The position numbers and the translations under genes are program-made. Positions 38,387-64,000 of a DNA stretch of 64,000 nucleotides are shown here, one piece after another. The first letter of the stretch is position 1; every line of letters starts with the position of its first letter. Source of the stretch: Streptomyces ferrugineus. GTDB lineage: Bacteria > Actinomycetota > Actinomycetes > Streptomycetales > Streptomycetaceae. The stretch spans positions 8,407,001 through 8,471,000 of the forward strand of contig NZ_CP063373.1 in assembly GCF_015160855.1 (NCBI RefSeq), in the 5' to 3' direction. Under the pieces are notes generated by a model. That model was not told the DNA's origin and did no database searches. It saw only the letters and a list, made by a program, of their open reading frames with translations.

Positions 38387-38893
38387 TCAGCCCGCCGTCT
38401 GTGCCGACGCCGGGGGCTCGACGGGGGTGTCGCGGTGGATGACCCGCGACCGGGTCAGCAGCCGGCCGTCGCGTCGTACCAGGACGTCCTCCACGGTGAA
38501 GGTGGGCTGGAAGGACACCTTGCCGTCGCGGTCCGTCTGGGTGACCAGGGTGTAGTACGAGACCCGCAGGGTGTCCTCGTCCGCGGGGTCGGTCTCGATC
38601 AGCAGGTGGTCGAACCAGTGCCGTACGGCGATGTCGCGGTAGCGCGGCAGGTTGGCCCGCATCCCGGCGATCATCTCCGCACGCCCCCGCTGCCGTTGGC
38701 CCCCGGCGTGGACGACCTCGCCGTCCTCGGTGAACGTGTCGGCGAACCCGGCGATGTCCAGGGCGTCGACCCGGCGCATCTGCCGTGCGTAGAACGTCTG
38801 CACCTCGGCGTAGAGGTCCCCGGACACGGGCTGCGGCAGCGTCCGGACCCCTCCGGCCACCGCGGCGCTGTCCGTACCGACCGACTCCGACAT
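38387..38893 (-). CDS. SnoaL-like (NTF2-fold) protein of the polyketide cluster
   Basis: A 168-residue protein of the NTF2/SnoaL fold, with an N-terminal helix pair (EVQTFYARQMRRVDALDIAG), FADTFTEDGEVVHAGG and a C-terminal sheet ending in a basic strand (LLTRSRVIHRD). In type II polyketide clusters such proteins act as ring cyclases, hydroxylase partners or hydratases; the exact role is not clear from sequence. ATG 38893 has a GAAGGGAG ribosome binding site. It is the last gene of the leftward PKS operon, 97 bases after the acyltransferase gene, and I take it as the left border of the cluster. Confidence 0.7.
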   Translation of the reverse strand: MSESVGTDSAAVAGGVRTLPQPVSGDLYAEVQTFYARQMRRVDALDIAGFADTFTEDGEVVHAGGQRQRGRAEMIAGMRANLPRYRDIAVRHWFDHLLIETDPADEDTLRVSYYTLVTQTDRDGKVSFQPTFTVEDVLVRRDGRLLTRSRVIHRDTPVEPPASAQTAG

Positions 38894-38990
38894 GGCAACT
38901 CCCTTCACGAGGACCGCTCCTGTGGGTCCCTCTCGGCGGTTCACACTGCCGTGCACCGGTGCAGCACCACTGGTGGACGGCTCGACCGGG

Positions 38991-40882: not shown

Positions 40883-41161
40883 TCAGGCGGCTGCCGGGGT
40901 GTCGCCGGCGTTGATGAGCGCGAGCAGCATGCCCGGGGTCTCGGCGTCGACGACGGCGTCGTCCGGGATCACGATCCCGTACTCGCGCTGTATCTGGCCG
41001 ATGACCTGCAAGAGGGCGAGCGAGTCGTAGCCGAGCTCGATGAAGGGGGTGTCGATGACGTCGCCGTCCAGGTCGACGCCCTCCTCCTCGCCCGCGCTCT
41101 CGCGCAGCATGCGGGTCAGGTCGGCGAGGGTGACGGTGATGGTCTCGGTGGTGGCGGTCAT
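40883..41161 (-). CDS. Type II polyketide acyl carrier protein
   Basis: A 92-residue ACP with the phosphopantetheine attachment motif LGYDSLAL (S47), acidic helices and the usual length for type II polyketide ACPs. It holds the growing chain for the ketosynthase/chain-length factor pair encoded just upstream. ATG 41161 is preceded by GAGAGGA. The downstream genes are the acyltransferase and the SnoaL-like protein. The phosphopantetheinyl transferase at 51535-52374 could activate it. Confidence 0.92.
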   Translation of the reverse strand: MTATTETITVTLADLTRMLRESAGEEEGVDLDGDVIDTPFIELGYDSLALLQVIGQIQREYGIVIPDDAVVDAETPGMLLALINAGDTPAAA

Positions 41162-41265: not shown

Positions 41266-42525
41266 TCAGGAAGGGCGGCGCACGACCAGGGCCGCGTTGA
41301 AGCCGCCGTGTCCGCAGGCCAGCACCAGGGCGTTGCGCAGCGGTGCCTGCCGGGCCTCGGTGACCAGGTCGATCGCGTAACCGGGGTCCGCCGCGCCGAC
41401 GTTGACGGTCGGCGGGACGACGCCGTCGCGCAGCGACAGCAGGGCGGTGGCCACGTCCAGGGCCGCTCCGCCGGCCAGCAGCCGGCCGGTCATGGTCTTG
41501 GGCGCGGTCACGGGCACCGCGCGCGGGCCGAAGACCGCGGCCAGGGCCTCGGCTTCGGCGCGGTCCGCGGCGGGCACGCCGGCGGCGTCGGCGAAGACGA
41601 CGTCGATGTCGCCCGGCACGAGCCCCGCGTCCGCGAGGGCGTTGTCGACGGCCCTGCGCAGGGCCGTGGGCCGGCCGCCGCCGGGCGCGGGGTCCAAGGT
41701 GGCCGCGTAGCCCGCGATCTCCCCGTAGACGTGGGCGACTCCCCGCTTGCGCGCGGCGTCCGCGTCCTCGGTGACCAGGATCGCGCCCCCCTCGCCGGGC
41801 ACGTAGCCGCCCGCCTGCGTCGAGAACGGCAGAAACGCGCGGGCCGGGTCGTCGCTCGTGCTCATCAGGCCGGAGGCGATCTGCGGCACCCAGCCCCAGG
41901 GGCAGACGGCCGCGTCGACACCGCCGGTGATGACGACGGGGAAGCCCTTGCGGATGTGCCGGCGCGCCTGGCCGACGGCGTCGATGCCGCCCGCCTGTTC
42001 GGTGAGCAGGACCCCGCTGGGGCCGCGCAGCTTGTGCCGGATGGAGATCTGGCCGGTGTTGACGGCGTAGAACCAGGCGAAGGACTGGTACGCGCTGACG
42101 TACTCCTTGCCCTTGCTCCACAGGTTCTGCAGCTCGCGCTGGCCGAACTCGACGGCGCCGCCGGACGCGGAGGTGACCACGCCGACCCCGTACTCCGGGA
42201 GTTCGCGGGGGTCCATCCCGGCGTCCCGCAGCGCCCAGTCGGCCGCGGTGAGGGCGAGCCGGGTCATGTGGTCGGTCTGGGGCATCAGTCGGCTGGGGAT
42301 GTGCTCCTCGGCGACGTAGTCCGTGACCTCCCCGGCGAGCCGCGACGGGTACGCGGAGGCGTCGAAGCGGGTCACCGGGCCGATCCCCGACTCGCCTGCC
42401 AGGGTGGCCCTCCAGTACTCCTGAGTGCCCAGGCCGTTGGGCGCGGTGATGCCCAGGCCGGTCACGACGGTGGTGGCGGTGCGCGTCCCGTCGGCCGGGC
42501 GGGCGAGTACGGCGGTGCTGCTCAT
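41266..42525 (-). CDS. Ketosynthase chain-length factor (KS-beta)
   Basis: A 419-residue KAS-fold protein in which the active-site cysteine is replaced by glutamine (LLTEQAGGID, Q177), the hallmark of chain-length factors. It pairs with KS-alpha to prime and set chain length. The N-terminus carries about 18 extra residues (MSSTAVLARPADGTRTAT) before VVTGLG. ATG 42525 overlaps the KS-alpha stop (ATGA), ensuring equal amounts of both subunits. Which chain length it sets cannot be told by eye. Confidence 0.93.
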   Translation of the reverse strand: MSSTAVLARPADGTRTATTVVTGLGITAPNGLGTQEYWRATLAGESGIGPVTRFDASAYPSRLAGEVTDYVAEEHIPSRLMPQTDHMTRLALTAADWALRDAGMDPRELPEYGVGVVTSASGGAVEFGQRELQNLWSKGKEYVSAYQSFAWFYAVNTGQISIRHKLRGPSGVLLTEQAGGIDAVGQARRHIRKGFPVVITGGVDAAVCPWGWVPQIASGLMSTSDDPARAFLPFSTQAGGYVPGEGGAILVTEDADAARKRGVAHVYGEIAGYAATLDPAPGGGRPTALRRAVDNALADAGLVPGDIDVVFADAAGVPAADRAEAEALAAVFGPRAVPVTAPKTMTGRLLAGGAALDVATALLSLRDGVVPPTVNVGAADPGYAIDLVTEARQAPLRNALVLACGHGGFNAALVVRRPS

Positions 42526-43790
42526 GCGGCGGGGCTCCTCTCCGGTCGGGCGAGCACCATGGCGCTCTGGAAGCCGCCGAAGCCGCTGCCGACGCTCAGG
42601 ACCACGTCGGTCTCCTTCTCGCGGGCGGTCAGCGGGATGTAGTCGAGGTCGAGCTCCGGGTCGGGCTCGTGGAGGTTGGCGGTGGGCGGCAGCACACCGT
42701 GCTCCATGGCGAGGGCGCACGCCGCTATCTCCAGCGAGCCGATCGCGCCGAGCGAGTGCCCGATCATCGACTTGATGGAGCTGACCGGGGTCCGGTACGC
42801 GTGCTCTCCGAGGCTCCGCTTGAAGGCGCCCGTCTCGTGGCGGTCGTTCATCTTGGTGCCCGAGCCGTGGGCGTTGACGTAGTCGACGGTGTCCGGGGCG
42901 AGGCGGGCCTCGTCCAGGGCCGCGTCGATCGCCTCGGCCATCTCGCGCCCGTCGGGCTTGAGCCCAGTCATGTGGAAGGCGTTGCAGCGGGAGGCGAATC
43001 CGGCGATCTCGGCGTAGATGTGCGCGCCGCGCCGGCGGGCGCTCTGCAGCTCCTCCAGGACCAGGATCGCCGCGCCCTCCCCGAGGACCAGGCCGCTGCG
43101 GGTCCGGTCGAAGGGGCGGCAGGCGCTCTCCGGGGTGTCGTTGCGCGGGGTGGTGGCGTGGATGGCGTCGAAGCAGGCCGAGGTGATCGGCGAGATCGGG
43201 GCCTCGGTGGCGCCGGCGATCATCACGTCGGCGGTGCCCTCGCGGATCAGGTCCACGGCGTGGCCGAGGGAGTCGAGGCCGGAGGTGCAGCCGGTGGAGA
43301 CCACCGCGGCGGGGCCCTCGGCGCCCGCCGCCCGGCCCACCTCGGCGGCCATCGAGCTGGGCACGAAGTGCCGGTAGAGCTCGGGGACCGCGTAGGTGTG
43401 GTCGACGTTCCACAGGCGTCCGCCGTCGCTGACGACGGCGTACTCGCGCTCCAGGCTCGTGGTGCAGCCGACGGCGCTGCCGAGCGAGGTGCCGATGCGG
43501 CCCGGGTCGATGGCGCAGACGTCGAGCCCGCTGTCGGCGAGGGCCTCGCGGGTGGAGACCACGGCGAACTGGGCGGCCCGGTCGAGGCGGCGGATCTCGT
43601 GCGGTGTCAGGCCCGCGCCGACCGGGTCGAAGTCGCACTCGGCGGCGACCCGGGACCGGAAGGGCGAGGGGTCGTAGAAGCTGATCGTGCGGGTGGCGGT
43701 CCGGCCCGCGGTGAGCAGGTCCCAGTACTCCTTGACACCGACCCCGCCGGGGGCCACGACGCCCAGTCCGGTGATGGCGACTCTGCGCAT
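42522..43790 (-). CDS. Type II polyketide ketosynthase KS-alpha
   Basis: A 422-residue ketosynthase with the catalytic triad C168 (STGCTSGLDSLG), H308 (VNAHGSGTKMND) and H345 (SMIGHSLGAIGS). The CTSGLDS sequence is typical of aromatic-polyketide KS-alpha subunits rather than FabF. With the chain-length factor it condenses malonyl units into a poly-beta-ketone chain. It is the first gene after a 302-base gap containing tandem TGACGTGTCA repeats, so it probably heads the KS-CLF-ACP-acyltransferase-SnoaL operon. Confidence 0.95.
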   Translation of the reverse strand: MRRVAITGLGVVAPGGVGVKEYWDLLTAGRTATRTISFYDPSPFRSRVAAECDFDPVGAGLTPHEIRRLDRAAQFAVVSTREALADSGLDVCAIDPGRIGTSLGSAVGCTTSLEREYAVVSDGGRLWNVDHTYAVPELYRHFVPSSMAAEVGRAAGAEGPAAVVSTGCTSGLDSLGHAVDLIREGTADVMIAGATEAPISPITSACFDAIHATTPRNDTPESACRPFDRTRSGLVLGEGAAILVLEELQSARRRGAHIYAEIAGFASRCNAFHMTGLKPDGREMAEAIDAALDEARLAPDTVDYVNAHGSGTKMNDRHETGAFKRSLGEHAYRTPVSSIKSMIGHSLGAIGSLEIAACALAMEHGVLPPTANLHEPDPELDLDYIPLTAREKETDVVLSVGSGFGGFQSAMVLARPERSPAA

Positions 43791-44092
43791 GGCCTACCTG
43801 ACCTTCGACGCGGCCGGGTGCCGCGAGGTGCACCAGCCGGATGGAACTGTGGGGGTCACTGTCGATCCCTTCGTCCGTGTCACTGATGACGTGTCAATGA
43901 CGTGTCACTGATGACGTGTCACTGCTGAATCGGTGCGGCGGCCGGGGCGGTTCAGGGTCGAATCCTCCGCGCCCCGGCCGGCCGGACCGGTCGGCCGCCC
44001 GCTCGTGGCGTGCCGCCGTTTCCGGTTCCGCCATGGAACGTCCGAGCCCTCGACCGGCACTCGCGTGGCCGTGGACCTGCCGCGACGCGGCG
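43791..44092. promoter_or_regulatory. Promoter gap upstream of KS-alpha
   Basis: This 302-base gap holds no supported gene. It carries the tandem repeat cluster at 43876-43921 and otherwise G+C-rich sequence. It separates the carboxylase gene from the ketosynthase operon, both leftward, so it should contain the KS-alpha promoter. Confidence 0.6.
43876..43921. repeat. Tandem repeats (putative activator site) before KS-alpha
   Basis: Four copies of CGTGTCA start at 43876, 43890, 43901 and 43915, with spacings of 14, 11 and 14 bases; three of them sit in the pseudo-palindrome TGACGTGTCA. The whole is a 25-base unit occurring twice. It lies 86-131 bases upstream of the KS-alpha start. Repeats at 11-base spacing are typical of SARP sites, but the 14-base steps are not. 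Confidence 0.65.
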
Positions 44093-45709
44093 TCACGTGG
44101 GCAGGTTGCCGTGCTTGCGGGCGGGCACCACGGCGCGCTTGGTGCGCAGTACGGCCAGCGACTCGCACAGCACGCGGCGGGTGTCCGCGGGGTCGATGAC
44201 GTCGTCCACCAGGCCGCGTTCGGCCGCGTAGTACGGATGCATCAGCTCCGTGCGGTACTCCTCGATCCGCTGCCGGCGCAGGGCCTCGGGGTCGTCGGAG
44301 GCGGCGATCTCGCGCCGGAAGATGACGTTCGCCGCGCCCTCCGCGCCCATGACGGCGATCTCGTTCGTGGGCCAGGCGAAGGACAGGTCGGCGCCGATGG
44401 AACGGGAGTCCATGACGATGTACGCGCCGCCGTACGCCTTGCGCAGCACGAGGGAGATGCGGGGCACGGTGGCGTTGCAGTACGCGTACAGCAGCTTGGC
44501 GCCGTGCCGGATGATGCCGTCGTGCTCCTGGTCGACGCCGGGCAGGAAGCCGGGGACGTCGACGAGGGTGACCAGCGGGATGTTGAAGGCGTCGCAGGTG
44601 GAGACGTGCCGGGCGGCCTTCTCGGACGCCTGGATGTCGAGGACGCCGGCGAGGGCGGCCGGCTGGTTGGCGACGATGCCCACGGTGTGGCCGTCGAGCC
44701 GGGCGAACGCGCAGACCACGTTGGGGGCCCAGCCCTCGTGGATCTCGAACACCTCGCCGTCGTCGACGATCTCCTCTATGACGGCGCGGATGTCGTAGGA
44801 GCGGCCCGGCTCGGCGGGGACCAGGTCCAGCAGGGCGTCGGTGCCGCGGTCCGGGGGGTCGTCGGTGGGGGCGGCCGGCGGCATCTCCCGGTTGTTGGAC
44901 GGCAGCAGCGCCAGCAGGTACCGCACGTCGTCCAGGCACGCCTCCTCGTCGTCGTGGGCGAAGTGGCAGACACCGGAGGCGGTGGCGTGGACGTCGGCCC
45001 CGCCGAGCCCGTTGTGGGTGATCCGCTCGCCGGTGACCGCCTGCACGACGTCGGGCCCGGTGATGAACATCTGCGCGGTGTCGCGGACCATGAACACGTA
45101 GTCGGTGAGGGCCGGCGAGTAGGCCGCGCCGCCCGCACAGGGTCCGAGCATCACGCTGATCTGCGGGATCACCCCGGAGGCGGCCACGTTGCGGCGGAAG
45201 ATGCCGCCGTAGCCGGCGAGCGCGGTGACGCCCTCCTGGATGCGCGCGCCCGCGCCGTCGTTGAGGCTGACGAGCGGGGCTCCGGCCGATTCCGCCAGGT
45301 CCATGACCTTGTGCACCTTGGCGGCGTGGGCCTCGCCGAGGGCGCCCGCGAAGACGCGGAAGTCGTGGGCGTAGGCGAACACGGTCCGGCCGTGGACCAG
45401 GCCCCAGCCGATGACCACGCCGTCGCCGTGCGGCTTGCGGTCCTCAAGGCCGAAGCCGGTGGCGCGGTGCCGGCGCAGCGGTTCGATCTCGGTGAACGTG
45501 CCCTCGTCGAACAGGAGCTGGAGCCGCTCGTGCGCGGTGAGCTTGTTCTTCTCGTGCTGGCGCCGGGTGGCGGCGGGGTCGGGGCCGCGGCCCACCTCCT
45601 CCTTCAGCCGGCGCAGTTCCCCGGTGGCCTGGCGCAGGTCGGGCGGTGGCGGCGCGGTGGCGGCGGGCGGGGCCTGAGGGGTGACCGTGAGGTCGTCGAG
45701 GATCGTCAT
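44093..45709 (-). CDS. Acyl-CoA carboxylase beta subunit (acetyl-CoA type)
   Basis: A 538-residue carboxyltransferase of the AccB/PccB family. Conserved parts include GGAAYSPALTDYVFMV, the second half VDVPGFLPGVDQEHDGIIRH and AYGGAYIVMDSRSIGADL. The last contains Ile where propionyl-CoA-selective PccB has Asp (AYDVM); Ile at that point is the AccB form, which accepts acetyl-CoA. It should supply malonyl-CoA for the polyketide. The biotin-carrying alpha subunit is not in the window; an epsilon subunit is encoded at 57201-57413. It follows the SARP gene by 69 bases. Confidence 0.9.
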   Translation of the reverse strand: MTILDDLTVTPQAPPAATAPPPPDLRQATGELRRLKEEVGRGPDPAATRRQHEKNKLTAHERLQLLFDEGTFTEIEPLRRHRATGFGLEDRKPHGDGVVIGWGLVHGRTVFAYAHDFRVFAGALGEAHAAKVHKVMDLAESAGAPLVSLNDGAGARIQEGVTALAGYGGIFRRNVAASGVIPQISVMLGPCAGGAAYSPALTDYVFMVRDTAQMFITGPDVVQAVTGERITHNGLGGADVHATASGVCHFAHDDEEACLDDVRYLLALLPSNNREMPPAAPTDDPPDRGTDALLDLVPAEPGRSYDIRAVIEEIVDDGEVFEIHEGWAPNVVCAFARLDGHTVGIVANQPAALAGVLDIQASEKAARHVSTCDAFNIPLVTLVDVPGFLPGVDQEHDGIIRHGAKLLYAYCNATVPRISLVLRKAYGGAYIVMDSRSIGADLSFAWPTNEIAVMGAEGAANVIFRREIAASDDPEALRRQRIEEYRTELMHPYYAAERGLVDDVIDPADTRRVLCESLAVLRTKRAVVPARKHGNLPT

Positions 45710-45778: not shown

Positions 45779-46585
45779 TCAGCCCAGGGCCCGTACCTCG
45801 CGGTCGTCGGCCAGGTCCAGTTCGGGATCGGCGTTGAGCACGCCCTGGTGCAGCCGCTGGAGCCGCGGTGACGGTTCGAGGCCGAGTTCCTCGATGAGGG
45901 TGGTGCGCAGCCGCTGGTACGCCTCCAGGGCGCGCCACGCGCTGCCCGACCGGTGCAGGGCTGTCATGAGCTGTGCGCAGAAGTTCTCGTGCATCGGATG
46001 CTTGGCGACCAGGACCCGCAGCTCGGGCACGATCTCGGAGTGCCGGCCCAGCTTCAGGTCGGCGCCGATGCGCCGCTCCAGCGTGGCCATCCGGTCCTCC
46101 TCCAGCCGCAGCACCTCCAGTTCCAGCACCCCGCCGACGCGTACGTCCACCAGGGCGGGGCCGCGCCAGATGCCGAGGGCGCGGCCGAGGAGGTCGGAGG
46201 CGGCGCGGTGGTCGCCGGCCTCGTGGGCGGCGCGCCCGGCGGCGGCGATGCGGTCGAACTCCTGCACGTCGACCTGCCCGGGACGGATCTGGAGCAGATA
46301 GCCGCCGTGCTGGGTGACGAGGACGTCCTTGGCCTCCTGGAGCGGGTCGCCGTCGAGCGCGGCGGCGATCTTGCGCCGGAGTTGGAGGATGTACGTCTGG
46401 AGGGTCGTCGCGGCGCTGCGCGGGATGTCCTCCCCCCAGATCTCCTCCATCAGCGTCGGCACGGTCACGACCCGGTCGGCCTGCAGTGCGAGCAGAGCGA
46501 GGATCTGGCGCGGCTTCGCCGCCGTGGGCACGACGCAGACGCCGTGCTTCCGGGCGGTGAGTGGGCCCAGCACTTGGATGTCCAT
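45779..46585 (-). CDS. SARP-family pathway activator
   Basis: A 268-residue Streptomyces antibiotic regulatory protein. An OmpR-like winged helix spans about 1-100 (AAKPRQILALLALQADRVVT, TTLQTYILQLRRKI, GGYLLQI) and a bacterial transcriptional activation domain follows (DRIAAAGRAAHEAGDHRAAS and the helical repeats to 250). SARPs bind direct repeats at 11-base spacing overlapping the -35 region and recruit RNA polymerase to biosynthetic genes. Candidate sites are seen at 59142-59158 and 61970-62002. It is divergent from the small precursor-like gene. Confidence 0.93.
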   Translation of the reverse strand: MDIQVLGPLTARKHGVCVVPTAAKPRQILALLALQADRVVTVPTLMEEIWGEDIPRSAATTLQTYILQLRRKIAAALDGDPLQEAKDVLVTQHGGYLLQIRPGQVDVQEFDRIAAAGRAAHEAGDHRAASDLLGRALGIWRGPALVDVRVGGVLELEVLRLEEDRMATLERRIGADLKLGRHSEIVPELRVLVAKHPMHENFCAQLMTALHRSGSAWRALEAYQRLRTTLIEELGLEPSPRLQRLHQGVLNADPELDLADDREVRALG

Positions 46586-55435: not shown

Positions 55436-57204
55436 GCCCGGGCTCCCGAGGTGAGCAGCGTTTCCACGCCCGGGTCGAGCCGGGCGTGCAGCGGGGTGAT
55501 CTCCCCGCGCAGGAACATCAGGCGCATCGCCGCGCGTTCGACCTTGCCGCTCGAGGTCCGCCGGACGGTGCCCGAACGCACCAGCAGGATGCCTCCGGCG
55601 CGGATCTCGTACTCCTCGCCGATCCTGGTCTCGACGGCCCTCGCGAGGGCGTCCAGGTCGATGTCGTAGTGGCCCCGGTCCCGCAGTTCCTGCACCACGA
55701 CGACCCGCTCGCGTCCCTCGCCGCCGTCCGGCACGGCGAACACGGTCGCGCCGCCGAACAGCGGGTCGATCTGCTGGACGGTGCGCTCCAGGTCCTGGGG
55801 ATAGAGGTTGCGGCCCGCGACCACGATCATGTCCTTGATCCGGCCGGTGAGGTGGAGCAGCCCGTCCGCCATGGCTCCGAGGTCTCCGGTGCGCAGATAG
55901 CCGCCCTGTCCGCCGAGCCGGGCGTCGAAGGTCTCGGCCGTCTCGGCCGGACGGCGCCAGTAGCCGGGGGCGACGCCGTCGCCGCGCACCCAGATCTCCC
56001 CTATGCGGCCGTCGGGCAGTTCGGTGCCGGTGTCCGGGTCGACGATCCTGATGTCGGTGTCCGCGGCCGCCGGTCCGCAGGCCACGACCGGGCGGTGCGG
56101 TGCGCCGGCGGCCGCGTCCCGGAGCCGGTGCTCCTCCAGGGCGGCCGCGTCGGCCGTGCGGGGTCGCGCCGGCTCGGGTGCCGCGGCGCCGGACACCAGG
56201 AGGGTGGCTTCGGCGAGCCCGTAGCAGCAGGTGAGCGCCTCGGGGCGCAGTCCGGCGGCGGCGAAGCGCTCGGCGAAGGCGCGCAGGGTCTCGGCGCGCA
56301 CCGGTTCGCCGCCGTTGACGGCGGTGCGCCAGCCGGACAGGTCGAGGCCGGCGAGCTGGAGGTCGTTGACCCGGCGCACGCACAGGTCGTAGGCGAAGTC
56401 CGAGCCGCCGCTGACGGTCAGCCGGTAGCGGGAGACCGTCTCCAGCCAGTGCGCCGGCTTCTTCACGAAGGTCGCGGGCGTCAGCAGCACCGCGGTGGTG
56501 CCGAGCCACAGCGGGTGCAGCAACTGCCCTACCAGGCCCATGTCGTGGTGGAACGGCAGCCAGCCGCCGATCCGGGACTCCGGTCCGGTGCCCAGGGCCA
56601 GGCGGATGGCCTCCTGGTTGGCCAGCAGGTTCCGGTGGGTGATCATCACTCCGCGCGGCTCGCGGGTGGACCCGGAGGTGTACTGGAGGTAGGCGACGTC
56701 CTCGGGGGACGCGCGGTGCGGCTCGGCGTCCGGGGTGGCCGGCCGGCCGTCCCCCGCCGGGTGCGGCAGGTCGGCCGGGGCGCAGACGACATCGCCGAAG
56801 CCGGTGCGGGCCAGCAGCTGCGAGACCTCCGCCGCGTGGCGGGCCTCGGTCAGGACGCAGCCGGCCGCGGCGTCCTTGACGATCCCGGCGATCCGCTCGT
56901 CGTGGTGGCCCCGGCCGCCGGGCGGGGCCACCGGCACGGCGACCGCCCCGGCGTACAGGCACGCCAGGAAGCTCGCGGTGAACAGCCGCCGGGACGACTG
57001 CAGGATCAGCACCCGGTCGCCGGGCACGGTGTGCCGGCGCAGCCGGTCCGCGAGGATGCGCGCGTGCCGGTCGAGGGCGCCGTAGCCGATCTCCTCGGGC
57101 ACGAGCCGCCCTTCCCGCTCGGTCAGCAGGACGAGGGCGGTCCGCTCGGGCCGGGCGCCGGCGGTGGCCCGGAAGACGTCGGTGAACGTCCGGGGGGCGC
57201 TCAT
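55432..57204 (-). CDS. Fatty acyl-AMP ligase (FAAL)
   Basis: A 590-residue adenylate-forming enzyme. The ATP loop is YLQYTSGSTREPRGVMITHR (near 163-182), with GWLPFHHDMGLVGQLLHPLW near 213-232 and YLRTGDLGAMADGLLHLTGR near 432-451. Sequence style matches FAALs, which activate a fatty acid with ATP and transfer it to an ACP instead of CoA. The ACP-AT protein two genes downstream is the likely acceptor. ATG 57204 overlaps the carboxylase epsilon gene stop. It may supply an acyl side chain or starter for the pathway. Confidence 0.9.
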   Translation of the reverse strand: MSAPRTFTDVFRATAGARPERTALVLLTEREGRLVPEEIGYGALDRHARILADRLRRHTVPGDRVLILQSSRRLFTASFLACLYAGAVAVPVAPPGGRGHHDERIAGIVKDAAAGCVLTEARHAAEVSQLLARTGFGDVVCAPADLPHPAGDGRPATPDAEPHRASPEDVAYLQYTSGSTREPRGVMITHRNLLANQEAIRLALGTGPESRIGGWLPFHHDMGLVGQLLHPLWLGTTAVLLTPATFVKKPAHWLETVSRYRLTVSGGSDFAYDLCVRRVNDLQLAGLDLSGWRTAVNGGEPVRAETLRAFAERFAAAGLRPEALTCCYGLAEATLLVSGAAAPEPARPRTADAAALEEHRLRDAAAGAPHRPVVACGPAAADTDIRIVDPDTGTELPDGRIGEIWVRGDGVAPGYWRRPAETAETFDARLGGQGGYLRTGDLGAMADGLLHLTGRIKDMIVVAGRNLYPQDLERTVQQIDPLFGGATVFAVPDGGEGRERVVVVQELRDRGHYDIDLDALARAVETRIGEEYEIRAGGILLVRSGTVRRTSSGKVERAAMRLMFLRGEITPLHARLDPGVETLLTSGARA

Positions 57205-57413
57205 CGCCGGCCCCGCGGCGACCGCGCCGTCCAGGAGGTCGCGGCCGGCCGGCCGTCGCCCCGGACGGTCCACTCGGCGCGGGGTGCGGCCGCGGTCGCG
57301 GGTACGTCGGCGGAGAGCGCCCGCAGCCGCGCGAGCAGCACGGCCGTCACGGCAGCGAGTTCCGCCGCGTCCGGCTTCCCGTGGAGCACGGTGATTCCTG
57401 TCCCATCTGCCAT
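57201..57413 (-). CDS. Acyl-CoA carboxylase epsilon subunit
   Basis: A 70-residue protein with the epsilon-subunit pattern: ITVLHGKPDAAELAAVTAVL at 7-26, a proline/alanine-rich middle, and a basic end (TSWTARSPRGRR). Epsilon subunits are peculiar to actinobacteria and bind the alpha-beta complex of acyl-CoA carboxylase, raising its activity. The beta subunit of this cluster is 12 kb away (44093-45709) and no alpha subunit is present, so it would use the housekeeping alpha subunit. It overlaps the FAAL start by ATGA and lies 58 bases after the ABM-type gene. Confidence 0.85.
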   Translation of the reverse strand: MADGTGITVLHGKPDAAELAAVTAVLLARLRALSADVPATAAAPRAEWTVRGDGRPAATSWTARSPRGRR

Positions 57414-57471: not shown

Positions 57472-58107
57472 TCAGGAGCGCTCGTGCGCGCGTTCGTAGG
57501 CGACGTGGCGGCTGTGCTCGACGGTGACGTCGGCGATCTCGCGCAGCGCTTGAAGGGCCTGCCGCCAGCTCTCGCCCGCCCTGGTGCGTGCACAGTGCTC
57601 GGCGTCGCGCCACCACAGGACGCCGGTGTACGACCGCGGCCGCACGATCGAGCGCAGCAGGTCGCTGCCGCCGAAGCCGCCCGCCGCGTGGCAGCGGTCG
57701 TTGAGCACGGCGAAGCGCTTCTCCAGCTCGGCGCACTCGCCGTGCACCCGTGCCCCGAACAGGACGACGCCGGCCGAGCCCACCGCGGCGGCCTCGTGCA
57801 GCGTCCGTTGGACGCTGACGGCCTGGTCCGCCGCGGTGTGCACCTTCGCTCCCAGCCGCCGTACCTGCGCGGTGAAGGTGTCGTCGCGCACGGTGTCCTG
57901 GAAGCCCCGCAGGCTCCGCCAGTGCCCCAGGTGCACGTACACCCGGGGGTCGTCCACCAGGCCGACCGTCACCAGGAAGTCGAAGTCGGCGCGCCCGCGC
58001 AGGAATTCGGAGTGCGCGCGGAACTCGCGCTCGAACTCCTTCACGTCGTCCTTGACCTCGAACCGGTTGATGACCGTCACCGGGCTGTTGAGATCACGTT
58101 CGGGCAC
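57472..58107 (-). CDS. Two-domain antibiotic biosynthesis monooxygenase (ABM)-like protein
   Basis: A 211-residue protein made of two ferredoxin-like halves. The first (VTVINRFEVKDDVKEFEREF, then DFDFLVTVGLVDDPRVYVHL and HWRSLRGFQ) fits the ABM dimeric alpha-beta barrel pattern; the second (GECAELEKRFAVLNDRCHAA and YTGVLWWRDAEHCART) looks like a diverged repeat. ABM enzymes such as ActVA-Orf6 oxidise aromatic polyketide rings to quinones without cofactors. GTG 58107 overlaps the aromatase gene by 14 bases. The oxygenase role is inference. Confidence 0.68.
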   Translation of the reverse strand: MPERDLNSPVTVINRFEVKDDVKEFEREFRAHSEFLRGRADFDFLVTVGLVDDPRVYVHLGHWRSLRGFQDTVRDDTFTAQVRRLGAKVHTAADQAVSVQRTLHEAAAVGSAGVVLFGARVHGECAELEKRFAVLNDRCHAAGGFGGSDLLRSIVRPRSYTGVLWWRDAEHCARTRAGESWRQALQALREIADVTVEHSRHVAYERAHERS

Positions 58108-59080
58108 GTGCTTCCTCCGCGAATCGACGGGCGTGGCGCAGGGTGGTCGAGCTGTTGCCGCCCAGTGCCCCGCGCACCAGGTCGCGAGCCTCCCCGACGG
58201 TGGCGTCGGGGCCGAGGGCGCTGCGGATGCCCTCCGGGTCCAGGGTCACCGTGTGCCAGGAGGTGGCCCGCACGGTGCCGTCGCCGAGTGTCTCGATCTC
58301 CCAGCGTCCGGTGTGCCCGCTCATCGCGACCGGCACCCGCAGCTGTTTGTAGACGATCTCCCGGCGGTCCTCGAACAGGACCCTGATCGAGGTGGTGTTG
58401 TGCAGGGAGCCGTCCGGGCTGCGGGTGTCCATGTCCATGCGCTGGACGCCGCCCTCCTCCTCGGCGAGGTCGAGGCGGGCGACGTGCGGCAGCCGCTCGG
58501 GCCACAGCTCGGCGCGCGCGAGGAAGGCGTAGACGTCGGCCGCGTCGCCGTGGACGGTCTCCGAGTCGGAGAAGGTCATGCGCAGTTCGTCGCCGTTCGC
58601 GCCGAGTTCGGCGGCGTTCTTCAGGGCGGCCAGCTCGGCGTTGCTGTTGCGGTCCACGGCACGGGCGATCAGGGCCTCGGCCTCCGGGTCGTCGCCGACG
58701 GCACGGTAGTCGTGCAGCAGGACGACGCGGGTGGTGCCGTCGCTCTGCTCCTCGACGCGCCACTCGCCGCCCATGGAGGCGACCGGCGGGGCGGAGACGA
58801 CCTGGCGGAAGACGACGGTGCGGGCGGCGGGGTCGAGGACGCGGCGCGAGGTCCACGCCTTGACCCGGCCCTCGGCCGTGGCCCAGATCCGCAGCGTCTG
58901 CTCGCCGCCGCGCTCGGGGTCGGCCTCCTGGAGGACCTCGACATGCACGGTCGGCCCGAAGACCTGCGGCCACGCGGAGACGTCCGCGACGAGCCGGTAG
59001 ACGTCGGCCGGCGGCGCGGCGACGCTGACGGAGTGTTCCGTGACCTTGGTCGCCGATGTGTCGGACACTGCGGTAGCCAC
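58094..59080 (-). CDS. Aromatase/cyclase, didomain START-fold
   Basis: A 328-residue protein with two SRPBCC/START domains: residues about 12-155 (HSVSVAAPPADVYRLVADVS, WPQVFGP, FRQVVSAPPVASMGGEWRVE) and about 165-310 (FSDSETVHGDAADVYAFLAR, WPERLPHVARLDL, GHTGRWEIETLGDGTVRATS). Didomain aromatase/cyclases fold and dehydrate the first ring of polyketides, usually when the chain has been reduced at C9. No ketoreductase gene is seen in the window. GTG 59080 has a GGAAGG site. A SARP-type repeat lies 62 bases upstream. Confidence 0.92.
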   Translation of the reverse strand: MATAVSDTSATKVTEHSVSVAAPPADVYRLVADVSAWPQVFGPTVHVEVLQEADPERGGEQTLRIWATAEGRVKAWTSRRVLDPAARTVVFRQVVSAPPVASMGGEWRVEEQSDGTTRVVLLHDYRAVGDDPEAEALIARAVDRNSNAELAALKNAAELGANGDELRMTFSDSETVHGDAADVYAFLARAELWPERLPHVARLDLAEEEGGVQRMDMDTRSPDGSLHNTTSIRVLFEDRREIVYKQLRVPVAMSGHTGRWEIETLGDGTVRATSWHTVTLDPEGIRSALGPDATVGEARDLVRGALGGNSSTTLRHARRFAEEARART

Positions 59081-59141
59081 GGCGTACCTTCCCTTCGGTG
59101 CGGCCGTGTGAACGGCGGATTCAACAGTGGCAGAGGTGCGC

Positions 59142-59158: not shown

Positions 59159-59187
59159 CGGGCTGGACCGGGTGGACCGGCCTTCGT

Positions 59188-60231
59188 TCAGCGGGCGGGG
59201 TCCGCGAAGCCGGGGACGTCGGTGATCTCCACGACGGCGCAGCCCCAGCTGTAGCCCGCCCCGACGCTGACGAGCACCACGAGGTCGCCCGGCGCGGCGC
59301 GGCCGGCGGTGACGAGGTGGTCGAGGCCGGCGAACTGGTCGCCCGCGCCGAGGTGTCCCACGGTGCGGCTGAACTCCCAGGTGGTGCGCTCCGGGTCGAT
59401 CCCGAACGGCGTGTAGTAGATGGCCTGGAGCCTGCGCCGGCCGAAGTGCGGCAGCAGCACCCACCGGGCGTCGGCCAGTTCGATGCCGGCGTCGGCGAGG
59501 GCCTGCTTGACGGCCGTCCGCTGGCCCTGGTGGGCGCGGCTGACGGCGTACGACATGCCGGTGCGGCCGATGAAGGCGCGCTTGGCCTCCGCGAAGTCCA
59601 CCGGCATACGGTGGCTGAACGGCGCCCGCGTGAACGGGTCGTCGCCCCGGTGCATGGGTTCCAGCTGGGGGTCGGCGAACAGCGCGAGGGAGAGCAGCCG
59701 GGCGTATCCGCCGCGGCGGGAGAGGACGAGGGCGGTGGCACCGTCCGCGTAGGGCGTGCCGGGGTCGGTGCTCCAGCGGTCGATGCCGGGGGCGCAGAAG
59801 CGGTCGGCGGTGGTCAGCAGGGCGTCGGGGGCGGCGTGGTGGCCGGCCGTCAGGTAGGCGGCGGCGAGGTCCATGGCGGCGAGTCCGCCGTTGGACATCT
59901 GCCGGATCTCCAGGGCGGGGCAGCTGTTCGCGGTCGACTCGCGCTGGATGTAGGAGGCGACGGGCCACAGGTCCTGGCCCTGGTGGTAGGTGTCGGCGTG
60001 CAGGATGAGCCCGACGTCCCCGGGACCGGAGTCCGCGCGCGTCAGGGCGTCGCGGGCGGCGACCGCCGCCATCTCGGCGGCCGACTCTTCGGGCGAGTAC
60101 GCCACCGACTCCATCCCGGTGGCGGCGGCGACCCGAGCGGGGCACGCGCCGGAGGCGACGGCGTCGGCGACCGGGAGCGAGGACGGCAGTCGGACCGCGC
60201 TCCCGCGGATCCAGATGTCTTCCACACGCAC
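59188..60231 (-). CDS. KSIII-like priming ketosynthase with a serine active site (DpsC type)
   Basis: A 347-residue KASIII-fold protein. The position of the usual catalytic cysteine is serine: ALEIRQMSNGGLAAMDLA, S113. The normal HQAN and NxGN motifs are replaced by LLPHFGRR (H262) and TVGHLGAGDQF (H293, D298). The spacing of S113, H293 and D298 closely follows the Ser-His-Asp site of the daunorubicin priming enzyme DpsC, which uses propionyl-CoA. It therefore probably selects the starter unit. GTG 60231 is chosen for GAAAGG upstream. It follows the citramalate synthase gene by 38 bases. Confidence 0.88.
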   Translation of the reverse strand: MRVEDIWIRGSAVRLPSSLPVADAVASGACPARVAAATGMESVAYSPEESAAEMAAVAARDALTRADSGPGDVGLILHADTYHQGQDLWPVASYIQRESTANSCPALEIRQMSNGGLAAMDLAAAYLTAGHHAAPDALLTTADRFCAPGIDRWSTDPGTPYADGATALVLSRRGGYARLLSLALFADPQLEPMHRGDDPFTRAPFSHRMPVDFAEAKRAFIGRTGMSYAVSRAHQGQRTAVKQALADAGIELADARWVLLPHFGRRRLQAIYYTPFGIDPERTTWEFSRTVGHLGAGDQFAGLDHLVTAGRAAPGDLVVLVSVGAGYSWGCAVVEITDVPGFADPAR

Positions 60232-60269
60232 TGCTGGGGCCTTTCGTAGGGGGAGATCCCGGACGCCGG

Positions 60270-61892
60270 TCAGCCGGCCCAGGCGGTGGCGAGCGGCACG
60301 GCGCCGCGGCCCGGTCGCACGTCGTCCAGCAGGACGTAGCGGACGGCGTCGAGGAGGGCGCGCCAGCTCGCGGTGACGGTGTTCTCGTCCACCCCGACCG
60401 TCCCCCAGCGGCGTTCGCCGTCCCTGAACTGGACGAGCACCCGGGCGGCGGCACCGCTGCCGGTCTCGCCGTTGAGCACCCGGACCCGGTAGTCGACCAG
60501 CTCCAGCCGGGCCAGTTGCGGGAAGAACGGGTCGAGCGCCCGGTGCAGCGCGGTGTCGAGGGCGTTGACGGGTCCGTTGCCCTGCCCCGTCGCGGCGAGC
60601 GGGACGTCGTCGACGCGCAGCCGTACGGAGGCGTCGGTGCCCACCTCGCCGTTCGACCGGCAGGCGACGGACACCTGCCAGGAGTCGACCTCGAAGGGCG
60701 GTTCGGGCGGGCTGCCCGCCAGCTCCTCGCGCAACAGCAGTTCGAAGGACGCGTCGGCGCTCTCGAAGCTGTAGCCCCGGCTCTCCAGCTCCTTGACCCG
60801 GGCCGCGGCGCGCGCGCTCTCCTCGGACCCGGCGTCCACGGTGTAGCCCAGTTCCCGCGCCTTGAGCTCGACGGAGGACCGGCCGCCCATGTCGGAGACG
60901 AGGGTGCGCATGGTGTTGCCGACCCGCTCGGGGTCGATGTGCTGGTACAGGTCCGGGTCGATCCGCAGCGCGGAGGCGTGCAGCCCGGCCTTGTGGGTGA
61001 ACGCCGACGCGCCGACGTAGGGCGCGGACGGGTCGGAGGGGACCCCGGTCAGCTCGGTGATCATCCGGCTGGTCGCGGCGAGGGAGCCGAGCAGGCCGGG
61101 GTCGGCCGCCGCCAGGCCCCGCTTGAGGGCGAGGTTGCCGAGGACGGTGAAGAGGTTGGCGTTGCCGCAGCGCTCGCCGTAGCCGTGCGCCGTGCCCTGG
61201 GCGTGGATCGCCCCGGCGTCGACGGCGGCCATGGTGTTGGCGACGGCGCAGCCGGTGTCGTCGTGGCAGTGGATGCCGAGGGACGCGCCGGTCGCGGCGA
61301 TGGTGTCGGCGACGACCGCGCCGATCTCGTCGGGCAGGCAGCCGCCGTTGGTGTCGCACAGCACGATCGTCTCGGCGCCGGCCTCGGCCGCGATCAGGAC
61401 GACTTCGAGGGCGTACGCGCGGTTGCGGCGGTAGCCGTCGAAGTAGTGCTCGGCGTCGAGGAAGACCCGGCGGCCGGCGTGCACGAGGTGGCGCACGGTG
61501 CTGCCGATCATCGCGAGGTTCTCGGCGAGGGTGGTGCGCAGGGCGCTCTCGACATGCCCGGTGTGGCTCTTGGCGACGAGCGTGATGACCGGGGTGTCGG
61601 CGGCCAGCAGCGCCCGCACCTGCGGGTCCCGGGAGACGGCCACGCCGGGCCTGCGCGTGGCGCCGAAGGCGGCCAGTTCGGCGTGGGCCAGGGTGAGTTC
61701 GGTGCGGGCGCGGCGGAAGAACTCCGTGTCCCGGGGCACCGCTCCGGGCCAGCCGCCCTCGATGAAGCCCACCCCGAGCGCGTCCAGGTGGCGGGCGACC
61801 GCCAGTTTGTCGTCGACGGTCAGAACCATGCCCTCCTGCTGGCTGCCGTCGCGCAAGGTCGTGTCGTAGAGCTGGAAACTCCGCTCGCTCAT
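60270..61892 (-). CDS. cimA: (R)-citramalate synthase, CimA family
   Basis: A 540-residue DRE-TIM metallolyase. It begins with LYDTTLRDGSQQEGMVLTVD (8-27), shows the metal-binding GIHCHDDTGCAVANTM, GTAHGYGERCGNANL and AFTHKAGLHASAL, and carries a C-terminal LeuA-dimer regulatory domain with GQGNGPVNALDTALHRAL, as in CimA. It joins acetyl-CoA and pyruvate to give citramalate, the entry to 2-oxobutyrate and so to propionyl-CoA or isoleucine-type acyl units. In a polyketide cluster it most likely supplies the starter chosen by the DpsC-like enzyme. ATG 61892 has an AGGGAGGG site and heads the operon. Confidence 0.92.
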   Translation of the reverse strand: MSERSFQLYDTTLRDGSQQEGMVLTVDDKLAVARHLDALGVGFIEGGWPGAVPRDTEFFRRARTELTLAHAELAAFGATRRPGVAVSRDPQVRALLAADTPVITLVAKSHTGHVESALRTTLAENLAMIGSTVRHLVHAGRRVFLDAEHYFDGYRRNRAYALEVVLIAAEAGAETIVLCDTNGGCLPDEIGAVVADTIAATGASLGIHCHDDTGCAVANTMAAVDAGAIHAQGTAHGYGERCGNANLFTVLGNLALKRGLAAADPGLLGSLAATSRMITELTGVPSDPSAPYVGASAFTHKAGLHASALRIDPDLYQHIDPERVGNTMRTLVSDMGGRSSVELKARELGYTVDAGSEESARAAARVKELESRGYSFESADASFELLLREELAGSPPEPPFEVDSWQVSVACRSNGEVGTDASVRLRVDDVPLAATGQGNGPVNALDTALHRALDPFFPQLARLELVDYRVRVLNGETGSGAAARVLVQFRDGERRWGTVGVDENTVTASWRALLDAVRYVLLDDVRPGRGAVPLATAWAG

Positions 61893-62114: not shown

Positions 62115-63137
62115 ATGACCACCGAAGAGATTCCCGCGAAGGCCAAGGAAGTGCGACTGGCCGCACATCTGGAGGGCGCGCTGGCTCTCTCGCACTTCGA
62201 GCTGGCCGAGGCCGAGGTCTGCGAGCCCGGCGACGGCGAGGTGCTGGTGCGCTACCGGTACCTGCAGCTCGCCGCCGTGATGCAGGACCTGATGAAGCCG
62301 GAACCGAACCTGCCGATGCCCGGCTACCAGCCCGGCGCCCCGATGTGGGGCGCCGCGGTCGGCGTGGTGGTGAAGTCCAACAGCCCCGACCTGGCCGTGG
62401 GCGATCTCGTCGAGGGCATGGACGGTTTCAAGGAGTACTCGGCGGGACCGGCCGGCGACTACTTCAAGCTGGACGCGGACGCGTTCCCGAGCCCGGTGCA
62501 CTACCTGACGCAGGGCCCGACCGCCTACCACGGCATGGTGGACATCGCGGAGGTCGGCGAGGGCGACACGGTGTTCGTGTCCGGCGCGGCCGGCGGCGTC
62601 GGCTCGCTCGCCGGCCAGATCGCCAAGTGCCGGGGCGCCAAGCGGGTCATCGGCGCCGCGGGCAGCAAGGCGAAGGTCGACTACCTGGTGAACGAGCTCG
62701 GCTACGACGCCGCGTTCGACTACCACGACGGCCCGGTCCTGGACCGGCTGCGGGAGCTGGCCCCCGACGGCATCGACGTCTTCTTCGACACGGTCGGCGG
62801 CGAGCAGTTCGAGGCGGCCGTCCAGGCCGCGGCGCCGGGCGCCCGCTTCGCGCTCTGCGGCGCGCTGTCGGGTCAGGTCGGCGACGCCGAGGGGGCGTTC
62901 CCGCGTCTCGACGTGATGACCGCCATCGTCAAGCAGCTCGTCATCCGCCCGTTCGCGACATACCACACGCCCGAGCAGATCTGGGCGTGGAACTCGCACT
63001 TCGCGCAGTGGCTCGGCGAGGGCCGGTTCGTGCTGCCGCAGACCCTGGTGGAAGGCGGCCTGGAGGCGGCGCCGCAGGCCCTGATCGACCTGCTCAAGGG
63101 CAAGTACACCGGAAACGTCGTGGTGAAGCTGTCGTGA
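62115..63137 (+). CDS. NADP-dependent MDR-family oxidoreductase (enoyl/alkenal reductase type)
   Basis: A 340-residue zinc-free medium-chain dehydrogenase of the curcumin reductase/leukotriene B4 dehydrogenase group. The nucleotide-binding motif is VFVSGAAGGVGSLAGQIAKC (near 155-174), followed by VIGAAGSKAKVDYLVNELGYDAAFDY, which suits NADPH, and FFDTVGGEQFEAAV. Such enzymes reduce the double bond of an enone. In this cluster it may reduce a polyketide intermediate or a dehydrogenase-made double bond. Its stop overlaps the glycosyltransferase GTG (GTGA). Confidence 0.88.
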   Translation: MTTEEIPAKAKEVRLAAHLEGALALSHFELAEAEVCEPGDGEVLVRYRYLQLAAVMQDLMKPEPNLPMPGYQPGAPMWGAAVGVVVKSNSPDLAVGDLVEGMDGFKEYSAGPAGDYFKLDADAFPSPVHYLTQGPTAYHGMVDIAEVGEGDTVFVSGAAGGVGSLAGQIAKCRGAKRVIGAAGSKAKVDYLVNELGYDAAFDYHDGPVLDRLRELAPDGIDVFFDTVGGEQFEAAVQAAAPGARFALCGALSGQVGDAEGAFPRLDVMTAIVKQLVIRPFATYHTPEQIWAWNSHFAQWLGEGRFVLPQTLVEGGLEAAPQALIDLLKGKYTGNVVVKLS

Positions 63138-64000
63138 GCGGGTCCGGCAGGCACTTCGCGTTCTTCAACATCCCGGCGACCGGTCACCTCGTCCCCACGC
63201 TCGGCGTGGTGGAGGAGCTGGTCCGCCGGGGCCACCGGGTGACGTACGCGGCGACCGAGGCGTACGCGGACCTGGTCGCCTCCACGGGGGCGACCGTGCT
63301 GCCGTACACCTCCTCCATCGACCCGCAGACGATCGTGCCCGCGGGCGCCGAGGACTGGCTCGCCCGGGTGCTGCTCGGCAATGTGCGCGAGGGGGCCGCG
63401 ACGGCCCCGGTGTTCGAGGAGCACTTCCGCGGCGACCTGCCGGACCTGCTGGCGTACGACATCTCGGTGCAGTTCCTCGGCGGGGTGCTGACCCGCAAGT
63501 GGGACCGCCCCGGGGTGAAGTTCTACTCCGTGTCGCCGACGAACCGGAGCATCCCCCGGGAGGCCGTCGGGCCGGCGTACGACCGGATCGAGGCCGAGCT
63601 GCGCGAGTTCGCGTCGGCGCACGGTGTGCCGGACGTGTCCTTCGACGAACTGGTCGACGACCCGCGGGCGTTGAACCTGGTGTCCGTGCCGCGCGCCTTC
63701 CAGTACCGGCAGGAGACCTTCGAGGCGGACCGGTTCGCCTTCGTCGGGCCGTGTCTGCGCGAGGGCGATCTGGCGGGCGGCTGGGAGCCGCCGGCCAGCG
63801 GCCGTCCCGTGGTGCTGATCTCGCTGGGCACGAGTTTCAACGCCCAGCCGGAGTTCTTCCGGATGTGCGTGGCGGCGTTCGAGGGCCTGCCGTGGCACAC
63901 GGTCCTGATCACCGGTCCCGGGGTGGACCGGGCGGCGCTCGGCCCGCTCCCGGAGCACGTCGAGGTGCACCCGTGGCTGCCGTTGCAGGCGGTCCTCGCG
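63134..64000 (+). CDS. Macrolide-type (GT1) glycosyltransferase, cut by window end
   Basis: The first 289 codons of a glycosyltransferase of the OleD/MGT group: HFAFFNIPATGHLVPTLGVV at 7-26 with the catalytic histidine H19, EELVRRGHRVTYAA, then PVVLISLGTSFNAQPEFFRM near 235 opening the second domain. The nucleotide-sugar motif lies beyond the window. It should transfer a sugar from a nucleotide donor to the polyketide, either as a final decoration or as self-resistance. GTG 63134 overlaps the oxidoreductase stop. No deoxysugar genes are seen up to the edge, so the donor may be UDP-glucose or be made further right. Confidence 0.88.
   Translation, partial: MSGSGRHFAFFNIPATGHLVPTLGVVEELVRRGHRVTYAATEAYADLVASTGATVLPYTSSIDPQTIVPAGAEDWLARVLLGNVREGAATAPVFEEHFRGDLPDLLAYDISVQFLGGVLTRKWDRPGVKFYSVSPTNRSIPREAVGPAYDRIEAELREFASAHGVPDVSFDELVDDPRALNLVSVPRAFQYRQETFEADRFAFVGPCLREGDLAGGWEPPASGRPVVLISLGTSFNAQPEFFRMCVAAFEGLPWHTVLITGPGVDRAALGPLPEHVEVHPWLPLQAVLA

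Follow-up and report, generated by a model that had tools for sequence, protein, structure and literature searches.

The window analysed here is a stretch of 64,000 nucleotides of the Streptomyces ferrugineus chromosome (contig NZ_CP063373.1, positions 8,407,001 to 8,471,000), in a 9.96-Mb genome assembled as a single contig. Its right-hand part carries a type II polyketide synthase (PKS) cluster with a four-gene cassette in its midst: a small gene for a predicted precursor of a ribosomally synthesized and post-translationally modified peptide (RiPP), a fused leader-binding/YcaO cyclodehydratase gene, a sensor histidine kinase gene and a response regulator gene. The PKS core genes are read leftwards, the cassette (46830-51508) rightwards, and a second PKS-related block (51535-61892) leftwards again; the precursor gene diverges from a gene for a SARP-type activator (Table 1). 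A preliminary description of this DNA had placed type II PKS genes on both sides of a small gene and a fused YcaO gene, and all the genes that it named are present. It offered two readings, that the peptide is attached to or acts on the polyketide, or that the two products are co-regulated. With moderate confidence, we favor a more specific form of the second, in which the cassette makes a modified peptide signal that is sensed by the cassette's own kinase and switches on the surrounding polyketide genes.

The YcaO gene is the only match to that family in the genome at E <= 0.001. Its product aligns with LynD (4v1t) at 546 bits across residues 15-751, with TruD at 526 bits almost from end to end, and with MusD at 487 bits (best stretch 241-750), and it has the same fused architecture as these cyanobactin and muscoride enzymes. 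The Cys pairs and Glu/Arg motifs, which we take to be Zn- and ATP-binding, are invariant across 18 aligned relatives. The YcaO start overlaps the precursor stop by four bases (GTGA), which suggests translational coupling. In the precursor, a leader (residues ~1-77) is followed by a predicted core (78-105) with Cys87 in the sequence GCFSNFTH, the boundary being placed by an LD motif. Homologues number 24 in the protein database at E <= 0.001; they share the leader sequence ALLTARxGLEPxLAxRYxxxPxxVLxEFG, which terminates in an LVIE-LD-type motif and gives way to hypervariable sequence. The leader profile is weakly similar to nitrile hydratase alpha (E 0.0012). The precursor resembles the putative TOMM peptides of TIGR04351 (TOMM, thiazole/oxazole-modified microcin) but scores under the curated cut-off of 65 bits and does not belong to that family by score. 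A leader-binding protein fused to a YcaO domain with intact ATP-binding motifs, adjacent to a precursor with a conserved leader and a variable core bearing Cys, Ser or Thr, is the arrangement of TOMM or linear azol(in)e-containing peptide loci. Profile annotation of the window locus, including the region past the window end, found no SagB-type dehydrogenase, an enzyme that azolines do not need, and no protein consisting of the N-terminal ThcOx domain (see below), and since no SagB or ThcOx-domain gene was found, an azoline rather than an azole is predicted.

Next, we consider how often these genes occur together elsewhere. A YcaO match at E <= 1e-60 is present in 81 of 295 sampled Streptomyces genomes, the window genome included, and the closest named relatives are Streptomyces (best 80 of 452 matches). 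The comparison took in 124 loci, namely the window, three plasmid regions, regions of 40 among the 80 other genomes with YcaO, and 80 named loci, which are the best 80 of 452 confirmed. Removal of 14 duplicates left 110 distinct loci, and removal of three lacking a called YcaO gene left 107; loci L158-L160 are counted outside these. Because the best 80 of 452 loci and 40 of 80 genomes were sampled, the counts describe close relatives, and 15 of the 107 loci have less than 8 kb of flank on one side. By tblastn, the kinase lies within 8 kb of YcaO in 102 of the 107 loci, the regulator in 103, and both in 101; the gene caller missed the regulator at many loci (86/107, against 103 by tblastn). A SARP gene lies within five genes of YcaO in 69/107, and KSalpha/CLF-family genes (ketosynthase alpha and chain length factor) were seen in 34/107, with flanks of ~10 kb. 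Taken from the genomes, 76 of the 81 with YcaO have a kinase match within 9 kb of it, and among the best 99 kinase matches in the genus, 79 are within 9 kb of a YcaO match. A precursor, its maturation enzyme, a kinase and a regulator thus recur as one conserved block, as in peptide autoinducer systems. The co-regulation that the preliminary description had allowed for is sharpened by these counts and by a box shared in the SARP/precursor region, described below.

The small genes themselves look, by their sequences, like RiPP precursors, with a constant leader, the LVIE-LD motif and a variable, mostly Cys-bearing core. An open reading frame (ORF) with the motif lies directly 5' of YcaO in 84 of the 107 loci, by a pattern defined from the data after the sequences had been inspected (an alternative version found 80). 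The tail after the motif contains Cys in 69 of these 84, and Cys, Ser or Thr in 83. The core GC[FY]SNFTH is common to the window and to precursors P0003, P0004, P0009, P0015 and P0016. Many loci in other host types have a shorter leader with the same motif and cores such as ALFTVCAVTQ. Motif and core are tandemly duplicated in P0003, L079 and L081, for which we liken them to precursors with repeated cores. A SagB/ThcOx family occurs near YcaO in 19/107 loci, mostly between YcaO and the kinase; the two members that were profiled scored 167 and 145 bits. A separate family of ~210-residue proteins (c16) lies beside the cassette in 23/107 loci. Examples are L095:14405-15031 and L106:14356-14985, and such proteins are called 'NADH oxidase' or hypothetical in plasmid records. 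We replace the first label with that of an N-terminal ThcOx/SagB domain without the flavin domain, based on an hhalign E of 1e-44 and a fold match to ThcOx.

The relationship of the cassette to the PKS is close within one class and loose beyond it. A CLF of at least 74% identity is present in 15/295 sampled genomes. The preliminary description had proposed looking for the KS/CLF and YcaO pairing in other genomes, and it is kept in 14 of these 15. YcaO is within 10 kb in 13 of them; in G145 it is at the end of another contig with the same neighbors alongside, and G148 has none. Recurrence in 13-14 of 15 genomes excludes a chance neighborhood of PKS and YcaO. Over the 30 loci with both PKS genes, YcaO similarity correlates with that of KSalpha (0.54) and of CLF (0.56), where KSalpha and CLF correlate with each other at 0.87. 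Such linkage and co-inheritance would suit a true hybrid, with the modified peptide either linked to the aromatic polyketide or acting on it chemically, and lipolanthine and goadvionin likewise have polyketide or fatty-acid genes beside RiPP genes. We nevertheless regard a hybrid as very improbable. The same block, mostly with a precursor-like ORF, is found in clusters without visible type II PKS, so there is no fixed polyketide partner and no indication of hybrid chemistry shared with lipolanthine or goadvionin. It is also found with other type II PKS classes (nearby in L168, L173 and L174, and ~23 kb away in G261, L171/L172). The close PKS of G148 lacks the peptide, and in L140 and L149 the KSalpha is similar but the cassette distant. 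Hence the RiPP and PKS genes are not bound together, and the first of the two earlier readings is given up. The preliminary description had held that movement of the block independent of the PKS would speak against a hybrid; across host clusters such movement is seen, whereas within this PKS class the block is usually co-inherited. If our reading is right, genome-mining pipelines should be warned not to call such loci RiPP-polyketide hybrids.

The range of hosts is wide. Among those in annotated plasmid records are a phenylalanine-aminomutase type (L075, L160), a locus with pabB and KS/CLF genes (L076), a VlmB type (L077), a locus rich in deoxysugar genes (L159) and one that encodes tryptophan halogenase, tryptophan dioxygenase and an adenylation protein (L158). 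Beyond Streptomyces, the loci come from Kibdelosporangium, Actinosynnema and Micromonospora, among others, and one is labelled Rhodococcus. Of the pair L142 and L145, the locus labelled Rhodococcus rhodnii has almost the gene order of the one from Kibdelosporangium aridum, which could mean a transfer or a mislabelled assembly. Host type, by crude labels, tracks the YcaO tree, with 25 label changes versus 59 or more after shuffling, so a cassette is often passed down together with its host. Outside the actinobacteria the partners of YcaO are different: LanM, P450 and peptidase genes in Thalassospira, and SagB with nitrile hydratase leader peptide (NHLP) export genes in Nostoc (two relatives). 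Whether Actinobacteria share a set of plug-in thiazoline-peptide pheromones, in the form of a four-gene cassette that moves between unrelated antibiotic clusters and brings each under control of a rapidly diversifying peptide of its own, we consider an even call.

Between the divergent SARP and precursor genes is a 13-bp palindromic box, which we predict to be the site of the response regulator. In 21 aligned loci including the window, this intergenic region contains the block ATGAAAATGTCAT with flanks CCCAGTGAG and GCACTGTGC. At two mismatches or fewer, and by a consensus built from 29 of the same intergenic regions, the box occurs within 900 bp upstream of YcaO in 48/107 loci; there are seven matches elsewhere in the same loci and none in mononucleotide shuffles (one per locus). 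The 11-bp core TGAAAATGTCA is found exactly once in the genome, at 46709-46719, with ten more sites at one mismatch. The box is also present in loci without a divergent SARP gene (e.g., L141, L142, L145). In G148 a two-mismatch box lies ~90 bp upstream of the SARP gene, despite the missing precursor and YcaO. The SARP gene is the predicted target of the regulator. A different element, CAGTGA, recurs in both the KSalpha upstream and the SARP/precursor regions. It is in 12/27 KSalpha upstream regions, with a mean of 0.63 per region versus 0.05 in shuffles; being enriched and not universal, it was set aside as a shared promoter element. Near-tandem CAGTGACACGTCAT repeats at 43856-43950, upstream of KSalpha, span four copies of CAGTGA, and these repeats are possibly SARP sites.

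The kinase sequence retains the catalytic boxes. Its AlphaFold2 model has a predicted local distance difference test score of 82.8 and a predicted template modelling score (TM-score) of 0.60, with residues 1-41 poor. In the model the membrane part is all-helical and an extracytoplasmic domain is absent. The best PDB match to the kinase part is DesK, for the cytoplasmic part only, with a TM-score of 0.27 by query length. A DesK-like kinase part beneath an all-helical membrane sensor is the plan of DesK/DesR-type systems. That plan is also what one might expect if the stimulus of the kinase is the polyketide, an intermediate or membrane stress, with the YcaO product acting inside the cell, for example as a modulator of the kinase, and not being secreted. 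G148, which keeps the kinase and regulator without the peptide, would fit that as well, and so would the finding of no dedicated exporter among gene families present in at least 10 of the 107 loci, and the weak covariation in SARP-linked loci given below. Against it stands the covariation of core and sensor over all loci, across different host clusters, and on balance we think it rather improbable.

Over 67 loci, the core covaries with the membrane sensor of the kinase (partial r 0.30, p 0.001, with YcaO, kinase domain and regulator as controls). It does not covary with the kinase domain (0.05, p 0.20) or the regulator (-0.10, p 0.98), nor does the leader with the sensor (-0.13, p 0.99). The covariation persists with quadratic controls (0.25), with ranks (0.16) and after dereplication (0.27, n = 46). 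With YcaO and the kinase as controls (n = 80), it is 0.20 in pairs with YcaO similarity below 0.6, and within-clade permutation gives p 0.003-0.004. In the 32 loci that are not SARP-linked, r is 0.34. Covariation of signal and sensor beyond that of the block is a mark of autoinducers, and it is found here over all loci and is weak in the SARP-linked subset. The main rival to a signal is a second end product: the peptide would be a small azoline RiPP, such as a synergistic antibiotic, co-produced under the same two-component control. YcaO peptides are often toxins or antibiotics, the precursor is similar to peptides listed as putative TOMMs, and the cassette sits in biosynthetic clusters. An end product, in contrast, would not lead one to expect a core that varies with the sensor and not with the kinase domain or regulator, nor constant partners that are a kinase and a regulator instead of tailoring enzymes, nor the lack of any exporter or protease family in more than 15/107 loci. 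We judge it unlikely, with somewhat more to be said for it than for an intracellular role.

Since peptide, maturation enzyme, kinase, regulator and often a SARP gene travel together, a peptide-autoinducer cassette is the most economical reading. From the observed anatomy, recurrence and box we infer a circuit of five steps, all conditional. First, YcaO would bind the precursor leader and, by analogy with LynD, which forms thiazoline on its own substrates, probably close the core Cys (GCFSNFTH) to a thiazoline. Second, the core would be cut off and exported by proteins encoded outside the cassette. Third, the membrane helices of the DesK-type kinase would perceive the peptide. Fourth, the kinase would phosphorylate the LuxR-type regulator, which would bind the box at 46708-46720 and turn on both the precursor operon, as positive feedback, and the divergent SARP gene. 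Fifth, the SARP would activate the PKS operons.

Several points weigh against this circuit. First, 20 of the 99 best kinase matches have no YcaO match within 9 kb, and G148 retains SARP, kinase and regulator without precursor or YcaO, so the peptide need not accompany the kinase. The G148 locus (L163, G148:C4:42000-61999, at ~10072-13230) could be a natural knock-out or a listener. Second, the 24 gene families present in at least 10 of the 107 loci include no protease among the members profiled, and transport is represented by an MFS family in 15 loci and an ABC ATPase family in 12; a dedicated exporter or protease, usual in autoinducer systems, was not found among these families. Third, in the SARP-linked loci, which are the closest to the window, the covariation of core and sensor falls to r 0.09 (p 0.027, n = 48), and with SARP similarity as an added control it is 0.03 (p 0.30, n = 37). 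The core covaries with YcaO too (0.27, p 0.001), as expected of an enzyme and its substrate, and significance throughout is by permutation and not from a full phylogenetic model. Fourth, the box, with a consensus drawn from a part of the regions searched, was not found upstream of YcaO at two mismatches or fewer in 59/107 loci, and the motif pattern, set post hoc, missed an ORF in 23/107. Finally, a 2015 trioxacarcin study identifies in its title Txn9, a SARP, and Txn11, a two-component regulator, as key activators, and Txn9 also appears in a review table. That study reportedly found that the SARP and the response regulator form no cascade; if the genes are homologous, this would argue against our regulator acting through the SARP. 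Should the trioxacarcin cluster (txn) carry a precursor and YcaO, part of the proposed circuit would already have genetic support. It is for the missing exporter and protease, the kinases without YcaO and the weak covariation in the SARP-linked subset that our confidence in the peptide signal stays moderate.

Among the closest known systems, the LynD, TruD and MusD pathways differ in that the cassette has no protease or exporter, usually one short core, and a constant kinase and regulator. The leader is like that of TIGR04351/NHLP precursors, but the NHLP export genes beside the Nostoc relative were not found at the window locus. Agr, ComX and lantibiotic autoinduction likewise group a precursor with its maturation enzyme, a membrane kinase and a regulator, and the cassette shares with systems of the Agr/ComX type a variable signal and sensor and a box at the precursor promoter region. 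Unlike them, it has YcaO maturation, a DesK-type kinase, a LuxR-type regulator and no transporter, and its predicted output is the host biosynthetic cluster, often by way of a SARP. Among the small molecules known to act as signals in Streptomyces antibiotic clusters, most are butyrolactone-like. By analogy, goadsporin offers a precedent for stimulation of secondary metabolism by a peptide that a YcaO enzyme makes; PMC4603692 describes it as a Streptomyces peptide promoting secondary metabolism and morphogenesis at low concentration, whose dedicated cluster includes a B protein and a dehydratase. It does not come from a cassette lying within other clusters.

The enzyme and leader families are already known, and similar peptides are in NCBIfam as putative TOMMs. 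In the open-licence literature, judged by title and start of abstract in ranked results, we found no description of the cassette and nothing joining the YcaO or leader families to a two-component system or to control of antibiotic clusters. Nor is it described in the excerpts seen of papers on foxicin, on fibrostatin, on a type II PKS catalogue and on regulator classification. If our reading is true, a YcaO-modified peptide signal tied to one cluster could be read straight from the genome, and, should Actinobacteria share plug-in pheromones of this kind, a synthetic version of the predicted core peptide could wake the matching silent cluster. With YcaO in 81/295 sampled genomes, the number of clusters that a predictable peptide might address could be large.

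The polyketide genes have the marks of a type II PKS, namely a Cys in KSalpha, a Gln in CLF and a separate acyl carrier protein (ACP), and the best PDB match of KSalpha and CLF is the actinorhodin pair. A KSalpha scan of viral contigs gave no match. Past the window end the cluster continues with the rest of the glycosyltransferase, a methyltransferase, an AlkZ-like DNA glycosylase, sugar genes, a second KSIII, a protein joining adenylation and peptidyl carrier domains, a P450 and an MFS transporter. The AlkZ-like gene (PF06224, 215 bits) is 1.3 kb past the end (L002:6323-7513 = G000:C1:8472323-8473510) and hints at a DNA-alkylating product. According to PMC9570651, PMC8934636 and PMC9040887, trioxacarcin takes a 2-methylbutyryl starter from isoleucine via a KSIII, and AlkZ-type glycosylases are present in the trioxacarcin and LL-D49194 clusters. 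The window cluster is likewise a type II PKS cluster with KSIII and an AlkZ-like glycosylase, and its KSIII, citramalate synthase (with a predicted role in starter-unit supply), fatty-acyl-AMP ligase and AlkZ-like gene together suggest a product like trioxacarcin or LL-D49194 with a branched starter. From sequence, then, the product may be trioxacarcin-like. It differs in that this genome has one AlkZ match at E <= 1e-70, where two paralogues are reported for txn and for the LL-D49194 cluster (lld). The best AlkZ match is within 50 kb of CLF in 6/15 CLF genomes and not in the other nine, so the assignment covers part of the class at most. The ABM-like protein was tried as a displaced SagB-derived domain and ruled out by an hhalign E of 0.45.

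Table 1. Genes and sequence elements of the window from position 38387 to its end
Feature	Position	Strand	Evidence or detail
SnoaL-like protein	38387..38893	-	Pfam SnoaL_4, 71 bits
Stand-alone acyltransferase, 597 aa	38991..40784	-	Acyl_transf_1, 142 bits
Acyl carrier protein	40883..41161	-	PP-binding, 50 bits
Chain length factor (CLF, KSbeta)	41266..42525	-	1tqy_B, 516 bits; Gln replaces active Cys (TEQAGG)
Ketosynthase alpha (KSalpha)	42522..43790	-	1tqy_A, 610 bits; active-site Cys motif STGCTSG
KSalpha upstream region	43791..44092	-	CAGTGA at 43856, 43880, 43905, 43919
Acyl-CoA carboxylase carboxyltransferase	44093..45709	-	Carboxyl_trans, 634 bits
SARP transcriptional activator	45779..46585	-	BTAD, 162 bits; Trans_reg_C, 41 bits
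13-bp palindromic box GTGAAAATGTCAT (predicted regulator site)	46708..46720	.	In the SARP/precursor intergenic region
Predicted RiPP precursor, 105 aa	46830..47147	+	TIGR04351 putative TOMM peptide, 44.1 bits (45 bits in another scan)
Fused leader-binding/YcaO cyclodehydratase, 753 aa	47144..49405	+	YcaO, 330 bits; TIGR03604, 267 bits; TIGR03882, 141 bits
Sensor histidine kinase, DesK type	49495..50799	+	HisKA_3, 54 bits; membrane helices at residues ~49-206
LuxR/NarL-type response regulator	50894..51508	+	Response_reg, 70 bits; GerE, 61 bits
Phosphopantetheinyl transferase (PPTase)	51535..52374	-	ACPS, 53 bits
ACP-acyltransferase fusion	52375..53604	-	Acyl_transf_1, 193 bits; PP-binding, 47 bits
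Acyl-CoA dehydrogenase-like protein	53684..55435	-	Acyl-CoA_dh_M, 34 bits
Fatty-acyl-AMP ligase (FAAL)	55432..57273	-	AMP-binding, 235 bits; FAAL models
ABM-like protein	57472..58107	-	Weak ABM match, 27 bits
Didomain cyclase/aromatase	58094..59068	-	Polyketide_cyc2 in two stretches
KSIII-like priming ketosynthase	59188..60225	-	ACP_syn_III_C, 69 bits
Citramalate synthase, CimA type	60270..61892	-	TIGR00977, 600 bits (cut-off 450)
NADPH-dependent oxidoreductase	62115..63137	+	ADH_zinc_N, 81 bits
Glycosyltransferase, extends beyond window end	63134..64000	+	EryCIII-like_C, 62 bits (whole gene)

Some other neighbors of the cassette deserve mention. In ten loci (L046, L066, L092, L107, L116, L121, L122, L126, L129 and L132), SARP and the cassette are accompanied by the fatty-acyl-AMP ligase, ACP-acyltransferase and acyl-CoA dehydrogenase families with no KSalpha or CLF within ~10 kb, and from these the priming module seems to move without ketosynthases. 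An AfsA-type (A-factor-like) family, of which two members were profiled, adjoins the cassette in L061, L108, L109, L111, L112, L118 and L125, the last being S. scabiei 87.22. The cassettes that these AfsA-type genes adjoin contain SagB, and FAD-binding and HAD-hydrolase families are found in the vicinity, an arrangement that would put two signal systems together. One called ORF, L110:15206-16831, joins pyruvate:ferredoxin oxidoreductase domains to a C-terminal sigma-70 region 4; ORFs of this type lie beside several cassettes and may be a gene-calling fusion. Finally, a few kb from the cassette, L076:17306-21559 encodes a further YcaO of a different kind, accompanied by a TfuA-like protein and by a two-component pair distinct from that of the cassette.

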